From: Kribbella sindirgiensis
GTDB taxonomy: Bacteria > Actinomycetota > Actinomycetes > Propionibacteriales > Kribbellaceae
DNA length: 64,000 nt
NCBI RefSeq assembly: GCF_004331435.1
Contig: NZ_SJKA01000003.1
Span: forward strand, 62,001-126,000
Direction: 5' to 3'
Shown here: positions 27,496-36,518 of the stretch, piece by piece
How positions within the stretch are numbered: the stretch's first letter is position 1
How the letters are laid out: each line of letters starts with the position of its first letter
The notes under the pieces: model-generated
What the model was told of the DNA's origin: nothing
What the model saw: the letters and a program-made list of their open reading frames with translations, nothing else
Database searches by the model: none
Program-made: the position numbers and the translations under genes

Positions 27496-28278
27496 TCAGT
27501 CCTCAGTGGGGGTTAGGTTGAGGGTGTCGTAGCCCGTTGTGTCGAAGGCGTGGTCGGGGGTGGGGGGCTCGGCCAGGTCGATGGTGGCGTCGGAGTGGGC
27601 GCCGCAGCCGTAGTCGTAGGCAACCACGCGGGCCTCGCCGGGGGCCATCTCATTGGCGCAGACGCCGAACGCCTGGCCGAGGCTGTCGGCGAGGCGGATC
27701 CAGTAGCCGCACGAGTAGCACTTGTACGGAACGGCCTGGGCGATCGCGGACGCCGGCCCGAACTCCCCGCCGTACCAGCGTTCCGCCGCCTCTTCACGCC
27801 CGAACGGCGAGAGCACGCGCTCGCGCCCGAGGCCGAGCTCCTCGACCACCGAGAGCACGTCCTCCGGCGCGTCGGCGGTGTCGGTGAACCCGGGTTCGAG
27901 ACGCGGGTCGTCGGCGTGCGTCGGGAACAGGTCGCCGGGGCGGAGGTCGCCGGGCTGGACGCGTTCCGACCACGGGACCCACTCGGGCGCGACGACGGCC
28001 TCGTCGCCGGGCAGCATCACGACCTCGTTGACCGTGACGGTCTTGGCCCGCGACGCACGGGTCAGCGTGACGGCCCAGCGCCAGCCGCGGTACCCGGGGT
28101 GGGTGGAGGCGAAGTAGTGGGTGACGAGGCGCTCACCCTCGACCAGATGACCGAGGTGCTCCCCGACCTGCGCGGCGCCGGCCTCGGCGATCGCGGCCTC
28201 GCGCGCCGGTTCGACCGCCGCGACGCAGACGGCGTCGGGCTTCGCGCGTACCGGTTCGGGGCTTTTGACGGGAGTCAC
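27496..28278 (-). CDS. DUF3027 family protein with zinc-ribbon-like motif
   Basis: This 260-aa soluble protein matches the actinobacterial DUF3027 family: AVEPAREAAIAEAGAAQVGEH at the N-terminus, GYRGWRWAVTLTRA, VLLPGDEAVVAPEWVPW-type central segment and a C-terminal CYSCGYW...C cysteine arrangement. Function is unknown. GTG at 28278 was chosen because family members begin with a short acidic or basic lead before the AVEPAR segment, and the longer frame is antisense to the neighbouring gene. It diverges from an MFS gene. Confidence 0.85.
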   Translation of the reverse strand: MTPVKSPEPVRAKPDAVCVAAVEPAREAAIAEAGAAQVGEHLGHLVEGERLVTHYFASTHPGYRGWRWAVTLTRASRAKTVTVNEVVMLPGDEAVVAPEWVPWSERVQPGDLRPGDLFPTHADDPRLEPGFTDTADAPEDVLSVVEELGLGRERVLSPFGREEAAERWYGGEFGPASAIAQAVPYKCYSCGYWIRLADSLGQAFGVCANEMAPGEARVVAYDYGCGAHSDATIDLAEPPTPDHAFDTTGYDTLNLTPTED

Positions 28279-28396: not shown

Positions 28397-30163
28397 ATGC
28401 ATCCCCCCGACCCGAACGCCTCCGGCGGCAAACGCGAGCGGCTGAGTGACGCCCGGGCGCGGATGGGGACTGCCGGCAAGAAGGTCGGGCACGCCTCGAA
28501 GGTCGGCGCCGAGGGCGTGGCGTCGGCGTCCAAGAAGGCCGCTGAGGTCAGTGGCAAGGTCGGGCGGGCGACCGGGCGCCGGATCCGCGGCCTGACCAGC
28601 GCCCAAGGCGCCGGCGAATCCGGCCTGTCGCGCCTGATCGAGCTCGGTGCGGTGAACGCGGCGGGCGACACGGCGTTCGCGGTCTCGCTGGCCGGCACGG
28701 TGTTCTTCACCGTGCCGAGCGACCAGGCCCGCGACCGGGTGGCGCTGTTCCTACTGCTGACGATGGCGCCGTTCGCCTTGATGGCGCCGCTGATCGGCCC
28801 GCTCCTCGACCGGTTCCGGCACGGTCGCCGCTGGGCGATCGGCGCGACCCTCGGCGCCCGCGCGTTCCTGGTCTGGAGCCTGGCGTCGTCGATCTCCGGC
28901 CAGGGCTCCGCCTGGCTGTACCCGGCAGCCCTCGGCTGCCTGGTCGCGTCCAAGGCGTACGGCGTGACGCGCGCCTCCGCCGTACCGCGGCTGCTGCCCA
29001 AACAGATCACGCTCGTCACGGCCAACTCCCGGATCTCGCTCGCGGGCGTCGCGGGCGCGACCGTCGGCGCCGGGATCGCCGGGGCGTTCGCCGCGATCGG
29101 GCCGCAGTGGTCGCTGCGCTGGGCCGCGCTCGTGTACATCGTCGGCCTGGTGCTCGCGATCCGGCTGCCGTCCGCGGTCGACTCCCCCGCCGACGAAGAA
29201 GTGACGGGTACGGCGGGACGGGACGCGCGCCGGCGCGCGATCACCGCCGCGGTGGCGCGCGGGATCCGGTGCAACCTGGGACTGCGGTTCGTGTCCGGAT
29301 TCCTGACCATGTACTTGGCGTTCCTGCTCCGCGACCAGCCGATCAGCGGGGTCAAGGGCGCTGTCGCGGCCGGTGCGGTGATCGCCGCGGCCGGTATCGG
29401 GAACAGTCTCGGCACCCTTCTCGGATCGTTGCTCAGGGCACGAAAACCGGAGGCGGTCGTACTCGCGGTGCTGCTCGCCGACGCGACCGTCGCGATCGCT
29501 GTCGCGGTGCTGTACGGCCTGCCGATCCTGATCGCGCTCGGCCTCGTCGCGGGACTGTGCAGCTCGCTCGGCAAGCTGTCGCTGGACGCGATGATCCAGC
29601 GCGACGTGCCGGAGTCCGTGCGGACGTCGGTGTTCGCGCGATCGGAGACGGTGCTGCAGCTCGCGTGGGTGCTCGGCGGTGGCTGCGGGATCGTGCTGCC
29701 GCTGATCCCGCGCCTCGGGTTCGGGTTCCTCGCGGGCGTGCTGCTGATCGTTGTCTTCCTCGTACTGCGGATGCGCCCGAGCCACCGCCCGACCCCGGAG
29801 ACGTTGCGCCCGGGCGGCCTCGGCGGACCCCGCCCCGACCACGGGCACCCGGCGGAGCACCGGCACCCGGCGGGCGACGAGCACCCGGAGAGCACCACCC
29901 GGACGATCCTCAGCGTCGCCGAGCAGCGCGCGAACCGCCGGCGCCGTTCGAGCTCGCACGACGAGCCCACGGTCGAATGGCGCTCCGCGGATCAGAAACC
30001 GCCACCCGAGCAGCCGATGGGCCGCTGGTGGAGCGGCCAGACCGACGACGAGGACACCGGCGAGAACCCGACCCCCTGGTCCGAAGAACCAACCGTCGAA
30101 CGCAACCGGAACCACCCCTTCAAACGCCGCCCCGGCGACCCCCCACGCCACCCACCCCGCTAA
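28397..30163 (+). CDS. MFS transporter with long cytoplasmic tails
   Basis: This 588-aa protein has a basic, Ala/Lys-rich N-terminal tail (about 70 residues), about 12 membrane helices (PFALMAPLIGPLLDRFRHGRRWAIG carries the family A-motif) and a hydrophilic C-terminal tail of about 120 residues rich in His/Pro/Glu/Arg. Tails of this kind are unusual for exporters. The ATG follows GGCAGGAT. It diverges from DUF3027, a pairing also found in other actinobacteria. The substrate is unknown. Confidence 0.85.
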   Translation: MHPPDPNASGGKRERLSDARARMGTAGKKVGHASKVGAEGVASASKKAAEVSGKVGRATGRRIRGLTSAQGAGESGLSRLIELGAVNAAGDTAFAVSLAGTVFFTVPSDQARDRVALFLLLTMAPFALMAPLIGPLLDRFRHGRRWAIGATLGARAFLVWSLASSISGQGSAWLYPAALGCLVASKAYGVTRASAVPRLLPKQITLVTANSRISLAGVAGATVGAGIAGAFAAIGPQWSLRWAALVYIVGLVLAIRLPSAVDSPADEEVTGTAGRDARRRAITAAVARGIRCNLGLRFVSGFLTMYLAFLLRDQPISGVKGAVAAGAVIAAAGIGNSLGTLLGSLLRARKPEAVVLAVLLADATVAIAVAVLYGLPILIALGLVAGLCSSLGKLSLDAMIQRDVPESVRTSVFARSETVLQLAWVLGGGCGIVLPLIPRLGFGFLAGVLLIVVFLVLRMRPSHRPTPETLRPGGLGGPRPDHGHPAEHRHPAGDEHPESTTRTILSVAEQRANRRRRSSSHDEPTVEWRSADQKPPPEQPMGRWWSGQTDDEDTGENPTPWSEEPTVERNRNHPFKRRPGDPPRHPPR

Positions 30164-32822: not shown

Positions 32823-33206
32823 TCAGATGTCGAGTTTGTCGGCTACGCCTCGGAGGACCGTTGCTACCTGGCGGGCGGACTTGTTGTCGGGCTGGCGGCC
32901 GCGGCGGTAGCCCTCGCCGAGGCGGTCGAGGAGTTTGATCAGGTCCTCGATCACGACCTGCATGTCCTCGGGCTTCGGCCGCATCGCCTTCGCCACCGAC
33001 GGCGGCGGGTCGATCAGCCGGACCTGGAGGGCCTGCTCGCCCTTGCGTCCCTCGACGACACCGAACTCGACCTTCTGGCCCGGCTTCAGGTTGGTGACAC
33101 CCGACGGCAAGGCCTCGGCGCGGACGTAGACGTCCCCACCCTCCTCCTTGCTGAGGAATCCGAACCCCTTCTCGGAGTCATACCACTTCACCTTGCCAAC
33201 GGGCAC
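32823..33206 (-). CDS. Cold-shock domain protein with C-terminal extension
   Basis: The protein is 127 aa. Residues 1-65 form a cold-shock (OB-fold, single-stranded nucleic acid binding) domain: GKVKWYDSEKGFGFL with RNP1-like KGFGFL, then DVYVRAEAL in place of the usual VFVH (RNP2 degenerate). The C-terminal half (KPEDMQVVIEDLIKLLDRLGEGYRRG) is helical, as in the long CspB proteins of actinobacteria. GTG at 33206 gives the standard MPVGKVKWYD start; an ATG 8 codons upstream is less likely. Confidence 0.9.
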   Translation of the reverse strand: MPVGKVKWYDSEKGFGFLSKEEGGDVYVRAEALPSGVTNLKPGQKVEFGVVEGRKGEQALQVRLIDPPPSVAKAMRPKPEDMQVVIEDLIKLLDRLGEGYRRGRQPDNKSARQVATVLRGVADKLDI

Positions 33207-33257
33207 GGGAGACCTCTTCTTCACAATCAAGCACAGCGGTCGTCAAGCATTCGGAAG

Positions 33258-33357: not shown

Positions 33358-34833
33358 TTACAAGTTCCGGTACTTTTCGGGCTCCGGCAACCGTTCGTTC
33401 ATCGATCCGGACCGGAACCCGCGCGGGTCCACGCGCGCGGCCGGGAACCCTTCGGCCATGACCGCATTCACCAGCGAGTCCTGATCCACCTGGTCCAGCA
33501 GCGCCGCGTCGATCTCGATCGAGGCGCTGTCCCCGAGGTCCCGGACCCGCACGTTCTGGACGCCGTACGCCGTCAGTCGCGAACGGACCGCCTGCTCGGC
33601 GCGATCGACACGCGCGAGCAGGTTCGGCGTGATCCGGATGCCGTACGCGATCCGGCTGGACAGGCACGCCGCGGCCGGCTTGTCCGACGTCTCGAGTCCC
33701 CAGCTGCGCGACGCCGTACGGATCTGCGCCTTGGTCAGCCGGGCGTCCTTCAGCGGCGTCAGCGCGCCGCGCTCGAAGGCGGCCCGGATCCCCGGCCGGA
33801 ACCCGGCGATCGCGTCGTCGGCGTTCGTCCCGGTCGCGATCGCGGTGATCCCGAACTCGTCCGCGATCGGCTGCAGCGTCTCGACCAGCTCGGCCTTGCA
33901 GAAGTAGCACCGGGCACCGGAGTTCGCCTGGTACCCCTCGCGCTCCATCTCGTGCGTGTGCGGCGTGACATGCCGTACGCCGATGGTGTCGGCGAACCGC
34001 GCCGCCGGCTCGAGCTCGGCCGCCGGAAGCGACGGCGAGATCGCCGTTGCCGCGACGACGTTGGCCGGGCCGATCGCCCGCGCGGCCGCCGCGAGCAGGA
34101 ACGCCGAGTCGGCGCCACCGCTGAACGCGACCACCATCTTGTCGTACGTCGACAGCCGCCGCATCAGCGCTTCCAGCCGCTGCCCGAGCACGTACTCGTC
34201 GAGCCAGGCCGGGAACTCGGTCAGGTCGTTCAGGACGACGTCGGCGCCGTACGCGCGCAACTCGTCCGCGGTGAACGGGCCGGTCGCGACCGACACCGCG
34301 ACCGCACCGGCCGCGTGCGCTCCGTCGATGTCGGCCGTGTGGTCGCCGACGTAGATCGTGGCCTGGTGCTCGCGCAGCGCCGTACCCTTCTCGGCGCCGT
34401 GCAGGTCGCCGACCGGCTCGTCGACGTCCAGGCCGAGGTGCTCCAGGTGCAGCCGGACCGACGGGGTGTACTTCGCCGAGACGACCATCGTCCGCCCGCG
34501 CAACGCCCGGATCGCGGCCAGCGACTCGGCCACTCCCGGCAGCGGCAGGCTGCCCGTGATCGCGTGCGACGGGTAGTGCTCGCGGTACCGCGCGACCATC
34601 GCGTCGACCTGCTCGGGCGGGAACCAGTTCGCCATCTCCCAGGTCAGCGGCGGGCCGAGCCGGCTCACGACCAGGTCGGTGTCGATCGGTACGCCGGTCT
34701 CCGCGGCCAGCAGATCCCAGACGGCCTGGATCCCGGGCCGGGAGTCGATCAGCGTCATGTCCAGGTCGAATCCGACCACCAGTTCCGGAACGTCGGCGGT
34801 ATCGGGAGCGGGTTCAAGAGCGGCGGTTGACAC
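33358..34833 (-). CDS. larE: HAD hydrolase fused to LarE-type sulfur transferase
   Basis: The protein is 491 aa. Residues about 18-215 are a HAD-superfamily phosphatase with the DxD motif FDLDMT (Asp23, Asp25) and YVGDHTADIDGA as motif IV. Residues about 225-491 are LarE: PP-loop SGGADS, then GARCYFCK and TGTNADD. LarE proteins build the sulfur groups of the nickel-pincer nucleotide cofactor of lactate racemase, using ATP and, in some, a sacrificial cysteine. GTG at 34833 was chosen by family start. No larA, larB or larC is nearby. The fusion may couple cofactor precursor dephosphorylation to sulfuration, which is an inference. Confidence 0.85.
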   Translation of the reverse strand: MSTAALEPAPDTADVPELVVGFDLDMTLIDSRPGIQAVWDLLAAETGVPIDTDLVVSRLGPPLTWEMANWFPPEQVDAMVARYREHYPSHAITGSLPLPGVAESLAAIRALRGRTMVVSAKYTPSVRLHLEHLGLDVDEPVGDLHGAEKGTALREHQATIYVGDHTADIDGAHAAGAVAVSVATGPFTADELRAYGADVVLNDLTEFPAWLDEYVLGQRLEALMRRLSTYDKMVVAFSGGADSAFLLAAAARAIGPANVVAATAISPSLPAAELEPAARFADTIGVRHVTPHTHEMEREGYQANSGARCYFCKAELVETLQPIADEFGITAIATGTNADDAIAGFRPGIRAAFERGALTPLKDARLTKAQIRTASRSWGLETSDKPAAACLSSRIAYGIRITPNLLARVDRAEQAVRSRLTAYGVQNVRVRDLGDSASIEIDAALLDQVDQDSLVNAVMAEGFPAARVDPRGFRSGSMNERLPEPEKYRNL

Positions 34834-34980: not shown

Positions 34981-35574
34981 ATGGACTCGTTTGCCGATCG
35001 AACCAAGCGCCGGCTGCGGGACGAGTTGCTGGACGCTGCGCAGGACGCCATCGAAACAGGTGGGTACGACGGGCTTCGGATGGCCGAGGTGGCTCGTCGG
35101 ACCGGGGTGTCCCGGCAGACCGTCTACAACGAGTTCGGCGACAAGTGGGGCGTACTGGAGGCCGTCGCGGCACGCGAGACCGAGCGGTTCCTGCTGGATG
35201 TGAACGGCGCGCTCGCCGAGCAGACCGACCCGATCGACGGCCTGCGGGCCGCGGTCGAGCGGGCGCTCACGCTGGCCGGGGAGAACCCGCTGGTGAAGGC
35301 TGCGCTGGGCCAGCCGGGATCGGACCAGGCCAGCCAGCTGCTGACGACACGGGGGCAGCAGGTGCTGGAACTGGCACACCTTCGGCTGGATGCCCATGTC
35401 AGGGAGCACTGGCCGGAGGTTCCCGCAGAGGACGCGACCAGCTGCGTCGACGTCGCCTTGCGCGTCGTCATCAGCCACATCGTCACGCCGGGCCCTCCCC
35501 CGGCCGTGGTGGCGGCGCAGCTGGCTCGCGTCCTCTCCCCCTTCCTTGCTGAATCTCGGAGGTTGCACGTATGA
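34981..35574 (+). CDS. TetR-family regulator, operon with R2lox
   Basis: This 197-aa regulator has the [46 protein letters not shown]. The C-terminal domain resembles the mycobacterial regulators that precede R2-like oxidases. Its stop overlaps the R2lox start by four bases (ATGA). It likely senses a hydrophobic or lipid ligand and controls its own operon; the ligand is inferred, not seen. Confidence 0.9.
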
Positions 35575-36518
35575 ACGAACTGCACAGGCAGGGTTTCAGC
35601 TCGCTCAAGGCCGGCGGACTCAACTGGGACGCGCTCCCGTTGCGGCTCTTCGACAAGGGCAACCGCAAGTTCTGGAATCCGCGCGACATCGATTTCAGCC
35701 AGGACGCCAAGGACTGGCAGGAGCTGAGCGACAACGACAAGGACAACGCGTTGCTGCTCTGCTCGCAGTTCATCGCGGGCGAGGAGGCGGTGACCGAGGA
35801 CCTGCAGCCGTTCCTGCAGGCGATGGCCGCCGAGGGGCGGTTCGGCGACGAGATGTACCTGACCCAGTTCTGCTTCGAGGAGGCCAAGCACACCGCGGTC
35901 TTCCGGCTGTGGCTGGACGCCGTCGGCGTCACCGAGGACCTGCACCGGTACGTCGAGAACAACCCGGGGTACCGCGCGATCTTCTACGAGGCGCTGCCCG
36001 TCGCGCTCAAGTCGCTCGCCGGCGATCCGTCACCGGCCAACCAGGTCCGCGCGTCGGTGACCTACAACCACGTGGTGGAAGGGACTCTGGCGCTCACCGG
36101 GTACCACGCCTGGAACCTGCTCTGCACGGCGCGCGGCGTACTGCCCGGGATGCAGGAGCTGATCCGCCGGATCGGCGACGACGAGCGGCGGCACATGGCC
36201 TGGGGCACGTTCACCTGCCGCCGGCATGTCGCCGCGGACGCCTCGAACTGGAAGGTCGTCACCGACACGATGGAGGAGCTCCTCCCGCACGCGCTGACGC
36301 AGATCCAGTGGGCGCTCGACAACTCGCAAGAGCTGCCGCCGGAGATCAACCCGACCGCCTTGATGACGTACGCCGGCGATCGCGCGACGCGCCGGCTCGG
36401 CGCGATCGAGTCGGCCGTCGGCGCCGACGTGGCCGGGATCGATCTCGACTACTCCCCCGAGAAGCTCGAGGACGACTTCGGCGACGAGGACTCAGCCGCG
36501 CTGGCTGCGGTTCGCTAG
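35571..36518 (+). CDS. R2-like ligand-binding oxidase (R2lox)
   Basis: This 315-aa ferritin-like protein carries the metal-binding motifs GEEAVTE, FEEAKHT (ExxH) and [11 protein letters not shown] (ExxH). It matches R2lox rather than a class I ribonucleotide reductase R2: it lacks the R1-interaction tail and has the [22 protein letters not shown]-terminus of the mycobacterial family (Rv0233 type). The family assembles a Mn/Fe centre with a Tyr-Val crosslink and binds a long-chain fatty acid; its physiological substrate is unknown. It is coupled to the TetR gene. Confidence 0.92.

Follow-up and report, generated by a model that had tools for sequence, protein, structure and literature searches.

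The window analyzed here is a stretch of 64,000 nucleotides of Kribbella sindirgiensis, whose genome assembly comprises 8.9 Mb in 54 contigs. Positions 33358..34833 of its minus strand hold a gene for a protein of 491 amino acids, in which a HAD phosphatase part (residues 1-214, 34192..34833, minus strand) precedes a LarE part (residues 215-491, 33361..34191, minus strand). The frame opens with a GTG codon at 34833, its last codon ends at 33361 and the stop codon lies at 33360-33358. The fusion gene is adjoined by a cold-shock-domain gene (32823..33230, minus strand, Pfam CSD), which served as anchor of the locus. Beyond it lie an MFS transporter (28397..30163, plus strand, Pfam MFS_1) and a DUF3027 gene (27496..28275, minus strand, 283.6 bits with the Pfam model), both of which belong by synteny to a conserved block with the order HAD-(LarE)-cold-shock gene-MFS-DUF3027. 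On the other side of the fusion, a TetR gene (34981-35574) is next to a ribonucleotide-reductase-small-chain-like gene (35571-36518, plus strand, Pfam PF00268), and a PF00268 gene is likewise a neighbor of the fusion in L123 and in all four loci of close relatives that were checked (L002, L010, L016 and L018). No relevant paper on a HAD/cold-shock/DUF3027 locus appeared among the best 10 of 29 literature matches.

The original prediction of a complete HAD fused to a complete LarE proved to be real. Both domains score over their cut-offs in a single frame: the LarE equivalog model NCBIfam TIGR00268, with a cut-off of 150 bits, scored 272 over residues 220-479, and Pfam HAD_2 gave 58.5 bits against 23.8, while the Pfam models Hydrolase, HAD and Hydrolase_like were likewise above their cut-offs, the best stretches of all four falling within residues 20-206. 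The HAD region, with its catalytic motifs intact, covers approximately residues 20-214, and every motif named beforehand (DxD and motif IV of the HAD, PP-loop and CYFC of LarE) is present in the sequence. In a collection of genome contigs, the whole protein (residues 1-489 or 1-491) was matched in 19 of 19 loci with 86-97% identity; eighteen of these are titled Kribbella and one Streptomyces sp. SID13031. The predicted structure has a mean pLDDT of 86.7 and is mostly confident, except for the low-confidence loop 386-393 around C390, and a single predicted helix (residues 204-227) crosses the HAD/LarE junction. When the whole model was compared by Foldseek, the best 50 matches listed were all LarE structures of L. 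plantarum (27-30% identity), which agrees with the assignment of the LarE part and is uninformative on the HAD half. Both halves are under purifying selection: in seven comparisons of close relatives with the window, the HAD half showed dN of 0.013-0.041 and dS of 0.145-0.331 (dN/dS about 0.08-0.13), and the LarE half dN of 0.013-0.057 and dS of 0.175-0.359 (dN/dS about 0.07-0.22).

By its cysteine pattern, the LarE half is of the three-cysteine (CXXC-C) type and not of the sacrificial type. Its PP-loop SGGADS (residues 238-243, 34105..34122, minus strand) conforms to the SGGxDS pattern of LarE, and S238, G239, G240, D242 and S243 are found in all 125 LarE rows aligned. So are the CXXC pair C309 and C312 (CYFC, 33898..33909, minus strand) and the third cysteine C390 (33664..33666, minus strand), that is, the CXXC plus distant cysteine of the [4Fe-4S]-type enzymes. 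The sacrificial type was rejected, as A389 aligns with the sacrificial Cys176 of the L. plantarum LarE. The 125 rows, limited to loci with fetched DNA, represent 92 of the 93 LarE genomes of the class sample and part of the order sample, together with four rows from Kribbella, which include the genome of the window and one row titled Streptomyces. As described in PMC9283937, the Thermotoga maritima LarE with the CXXC-C motif binds a [4Fe-4S] cluster and works catalytically, and Ser180, Arg212 and Arg214 of the L. plantarum LarE have been proposed to hold the phosphate of the substrate. These three residues align with S393, R429 and R431 of the fusion; both arginines are invariant in 125/125 LarE rows, and S393 in 63/63 fused rows, which represent 62 distinct sequences because the protein of the window entered twice. 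Given this conservation, the nickel-pincer nucleotide (NPN) pathway seems to need the phosphate of the substrate.

The HAD half is an active-looking phosphatase, to judge from its motifs. Motif I, D23-L-D25-M-T27 (34753..34767, minus strand), reads FDLDMT, and its D23, D25 and T27 are kept in 69/69 fused or split HADs and in 18/18 stand-alone HADs, the broken one of G060 being left out. Motif IV, G163-D164-H165-x-x-D168 (34330..34347, minus strand), reads GDHTAD, and G163, D164, H165 and D168 are conserved in 87/87 HADs. Lysines K121 and K149 are also kept in the 69 and the 18 proteins, and position 119 is Ser or Thr in the HADs aligned. We take D23/D25 to be the DxD, S119 motif II, K121 and K149 the lysines and GDHTAD motif IV, so that motifs I-IV of the HAD superfamily hydrolases are all found; from the position of motif II, the cap is presumably of type C1. 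No NCBIfam model naming a HAD family reaches its cut-off on this half. The closest named families, far under cut-off, are the phosphoglycolate phosphatases (TIGR01449, 51.7 bits against 180) and PpaX (NF009804, 31 bits against 218). Among solved structures, a profile comparison placed 6f2x nearest (73.6 bits), an entry named Protein Tyrosine Kinase A, and HAD inorganic pyrophosphatases are among the distant relatives. From this distant similarity one may guess at a house-cleaning enzyme like the phosphoglycolate phosphatases, an idea to which we give about an even chance.

The remark that no larABC genes lie nearby stands locally and fails for the rest of the genome, where a search located larA, larB and larC on other contigs, all over their NCBIfam cut-offs. 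The fusion gene is on contig C33 and larB and larC are on C11, where the LarB frame lies just before LarC with a four-base overlap as listed; the adjacency of larE to larB/larC, usual but not required, is thus absent. LarB scored 269 bits, LarC1 194 and LarC2 137. Three Lar_N (LarA-type) genes occur on C51, C1 and C22 (L045-L047): one matches LarA (lactate racemase, 532 bits), another the LarAH14/15/16 isomerase (915 bits), and the third protein resembles a hexonate epimerase and is under every NCBIfam cut-off. No LarE other than the fusion gene scored over the cut-off in this genome. A second true LarE was rejected, since two further matches were far under the cut-off and covered the PP-loop region only; a PF20257 match, sought as LarE-related, was dropped because this Pfam entry is SAM_HAT_C and unrelated. 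As the sole LarE over cut-off in a genome with larB-larC, LarA and a LarA-type isomerase, the LarE half most likely makes NPN, and a role of this half in the pathway is thereby supported.

The co-occurrence of these genes was followed in the 394 genomes sampled from the class, where LarE is found in 93 genomes and LarC in 89: 86 have both, 7 LarE only, 3 LarC only and 298 neither. Among the 46 class-sample genomes with the fusion, LarC was found in 42 and a Lar_N match in 32. In 14 of the 45 fused or split genomes with LarC (e.g. G066, G070, G075, G111, G205, G228 and G245) there was no Lar_N (LarA) match at E 1e-10; the NPN user in such genomes may be a very distant LarA.

All 38 genomes of the GTDB family had a TIGR00268 score over the cut-off, with the presence of the HAD confirmed in 20 fetched loci of these genomes (L025-L044); such a score was also seen in 96 of 196 genomes sampled from the order and in 92 of 394 sampled from the class. 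The 93 LarE genomes of the class sample comprised 46 with the fused gene, 3 with a split pair, 20 with a HAD-less LarE near the cold-shock gene and 24 in other states, counting among the latter the unclassified G253, with two LarE pieces under cut-off. The 125 LarE rows divide into 66 with the HAD fused, 3 beside a separate HAD gene and 56 without HAD; these 56 are accompanied by the cold-shock gene (22), by larB/larC (28) or by neither (6). This domain survey showed that the fusion recurs in ten actinomycete families, f1, f3, f4, f12, f17, f21, f24, f26, f31 and f43 (the family and genus codes are arbitrary labels, not names). In a search of 396 genomes of the phylum, the matches listed included no whole-fusion match except that of the window, and those from outside the class span the LarE part only, with G744 and G683 starting slightly earlier. 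In one genome of the window's family (G002:C1:978999-979779) the LarE half is in two overlapping pieces, which represent a frame break or a sequencing error. For annotators, the survey means that the LarE of many actinomycetes is a HAD fusion encoded outside larBC.

The same syntenic block was found in the fused or split, the HAD-less LarE and the stand-alone HAD states. Of the 52 fused or split loci, 51 carry the cold-shock gene and the one without it lies at a contig end (the 52 loci represent 51 genes, as L133 and L171 come from one genome). All 20 HAD-less LarE loci examined have it too, every one together with DUF3027 and 15 also with the MFS gene. Among the stand-alone HAD loci it was seen in 15 of 19; a contig end is near in one of the four exceptions, and the other three lack the gene. 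Presence in the locus here means mostly within 2.5 kb, the distance in L112 being 6 kb. With a limit of 3 kb, 65 of the 66 fused rows have a cold-shock-domain gene. None of the 66 has larB/larC within 2.5 kb where the length of the locus sufficed, about 16 of these rows coming from loci with short flanks; in the f21 genomes G300, G290, G490, G379 and G319, larB and larC are about 8-20 kb from the fusion. Since the cold-shock gene is shared by all states, HAD and LarE swap in and out at one place. Other neighbors of the stand-alone HAD are a Helicase_C_3 + WYL protein on its far side (L211:845-3232 and L210:10042-12762) and a menaquinone-synthesis (VitK2_biosynth) gene in L210.

Each half is also kept without the other. 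A profile of the HAD half was run on 80 hand-picked genomes, and its matches split in two groups, of 163-326 bits and of 93 bits or less. High-scoring HADs were found in 6/6 positive controls, in 12 of the 26 LarE-less genomes (in two pieces in G060), in 7 of 26 genomes whose LarE has another setting and in none of the 22 genomes with a HAD-less LarE near the cold-shock gene, numbers to be read knowing that in many genomes only the best 40 candidates were scored, so that a HAD may have escaped detection. As 14 of the 26 LarE-less genomes are without HAD as well as LarE, the HAD is not universal. The 12 HAD-bearing genomes without LarE gave no LarC or LarA match. Thus LarE follows LarC across genomes and the HAD does not. 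The 18 stand-alone HADs examined end within 19 residues past the matched HAD stretch. Conversely, LarE is kept without HAD near the cold-shock gene in 22 genomes, with the conserved block confirmed in 20; these 22 include G283, whose LarE groups elsewhere in the tree and may be near the cold-shock gene by chance. No HAD remnants were detected by tblastn (E 1e-3) in 20 HAD-less LarE loci.

Intermediate arrangements were also observed. In genus g39 (G205, G228 and G245), HAD and LarE are separate genes with a GTGA overlap in 3/3 genomes, formed by the HAD stop and the putative LarE start. In G162, the HAD is alone at the cold-shock locus and LarE lies between larB and larC. In the HAD tree, six stand-alone HADs of f3 fall inside a 26-row f3 clade that is otherwise fused (support 100), and the LarE tree unites G355 and G212, both HAD-less, with the fused G483, G469 and G434 from the same genus (support 98). 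Both trees were quick, with many weak forks, and unrooted with respect to gain or loss, for which reason any order of events is inferred. The profile of the HAD half gave no match in the G212 genome, whose LarE is near a contig end, so that a separate HAD just beyond it would escape view. A fragment of 50 residues elsewhere in the G355 genome (52.7 bits) was not counted because it reads GDTPHDV and not the GDHxxD of the HAD family.

Gene fusion is often taken as a sign of two enzymes working together. Here, one locus in one bacterial class offers fused, coupled, HAD-only and LarE-only states, which makes this rule testable, and it appears to fail. We consider it probable that the gene is a long-lived fusion of old neighbors with separate functions. 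The C-terminal half would be a functional LarE with the three cysteines of the [4Fe-4S] type, which would use ATP to adenylylate the carboxylates of P2CMN and exchange oxygen for sulfur carried by the cluster; the product, P2TMN, would pass to LarC and then to LarA. The N-terminal half would be a phosphatase of the HAD family that is also encoded on its own next to the cold-shock gene. In an actinomycete ancestor, larE may have settled between the HAD gene and the cold-shock gene and then fused to the HAD, or, in one genus, become translationally coupled to it; some lineages would later have dropped LarE along with the other lar genes, and others the HAD. Because both halves occur without their partner and LarE alone tracks the other lar genes, the HAD most likely does a separate job, perhaps the phosphoglycolate-phosphatase-like clearing of a small phosphorylated metabolite. 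Against separate functions, the retention of the fusion in ten coded families could mean some benefit of coupling.

An unlikely alternative is that the HAD takes part in NPN synthesis, for instance by hydrolyzing pyrophosphate or AMP that LarE sets free, or by disposing of faulty pyridinium nucleotides. The long retention of the fusion, the translationally coupled pair, the HAD inorganic pyrophosphatases among the distant relatives and the single predicted helix joining both domains all point this way. However, the HAD family is kept without LarE, LarC and LarA, LarE is kept at the same locus without HAD, no named HAD family reaches its cut-off and the LarE residues that hold the phosphate of the substrate are conserved. 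The original prediction of a HAD acting on the pyridinium nucleotide or in cofactor recycling is left unsupported by the first two observations. Marginally less probable still is a dual role, in which the HAD would help LarE in the fused lineages (PPi/AMP removal or clearing of spoiled nucleotides) and serve a wider house-cleaning in genomes without LarE; if true, such a helper would add a step that the known NPN pathway lacks. That the LarE half serves another sulfuration pathway is very improbable: its position outside the larB/larC operon and the LarC-bearing genomes with no LarA match would fit this idea, but the equivalog score is over cut-off, the P2CMN-binding residues are kept, larA, larB and larC are present in the source genome and LarE and LarC co-occur tightly in the class sample. 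A frameshift or misassembly joining two genes is practically discarded, because the same full-length frame is found in 19/19 loci of other genomes and the fused sequences amount to 62 distinct ones, the window included.

Separate functions remain our preferred reading, and the HAD family itself, conserved in actinomycetes with its GDHxxD motif and named by no NCBIfam model, could be assayed. No report of a HAD-LarE fusion was found among the matches listed from the open-licence literature; it is unmentioned in the accessible parts of PMC9283937, PMC11770544, PMC13329287 and PMC8305020, and a word search of PMC11796402 found no use of fusion, fused or phosphatase. Compared with known systems, the fusion shares with the T. 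maritima LarE (PMC9283937) the SGGxDS PP-loop, the CXXC-C cysteines and the P2CMN phosphate-binding residues, whereas the T. maritima protein consists of the LarE part alone and here a HAD precedes it. The sacrificial LarE of L. plantarum (PDB 5udt and others) has the same fold, PP-loop and arginine pair, but its Cys176 is replaced by A389 and the fusion has three cluster-type cysteines instead. The phosphoglycolate phosphatases and PpaX (TIGR01449, NF009804) show the same HAD layout and catalytic motifs as the N-terminal half, which nevertheless scores under their cut-offs and has the GDHxxD form of motif IV. A further counterpart of this half is the stand-alone HAD beside the cold-shock gene of LarE-less actinomycetes (e.g. 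L204 and L211), which belongs to the same family and occupies the same locus, but is not fused.
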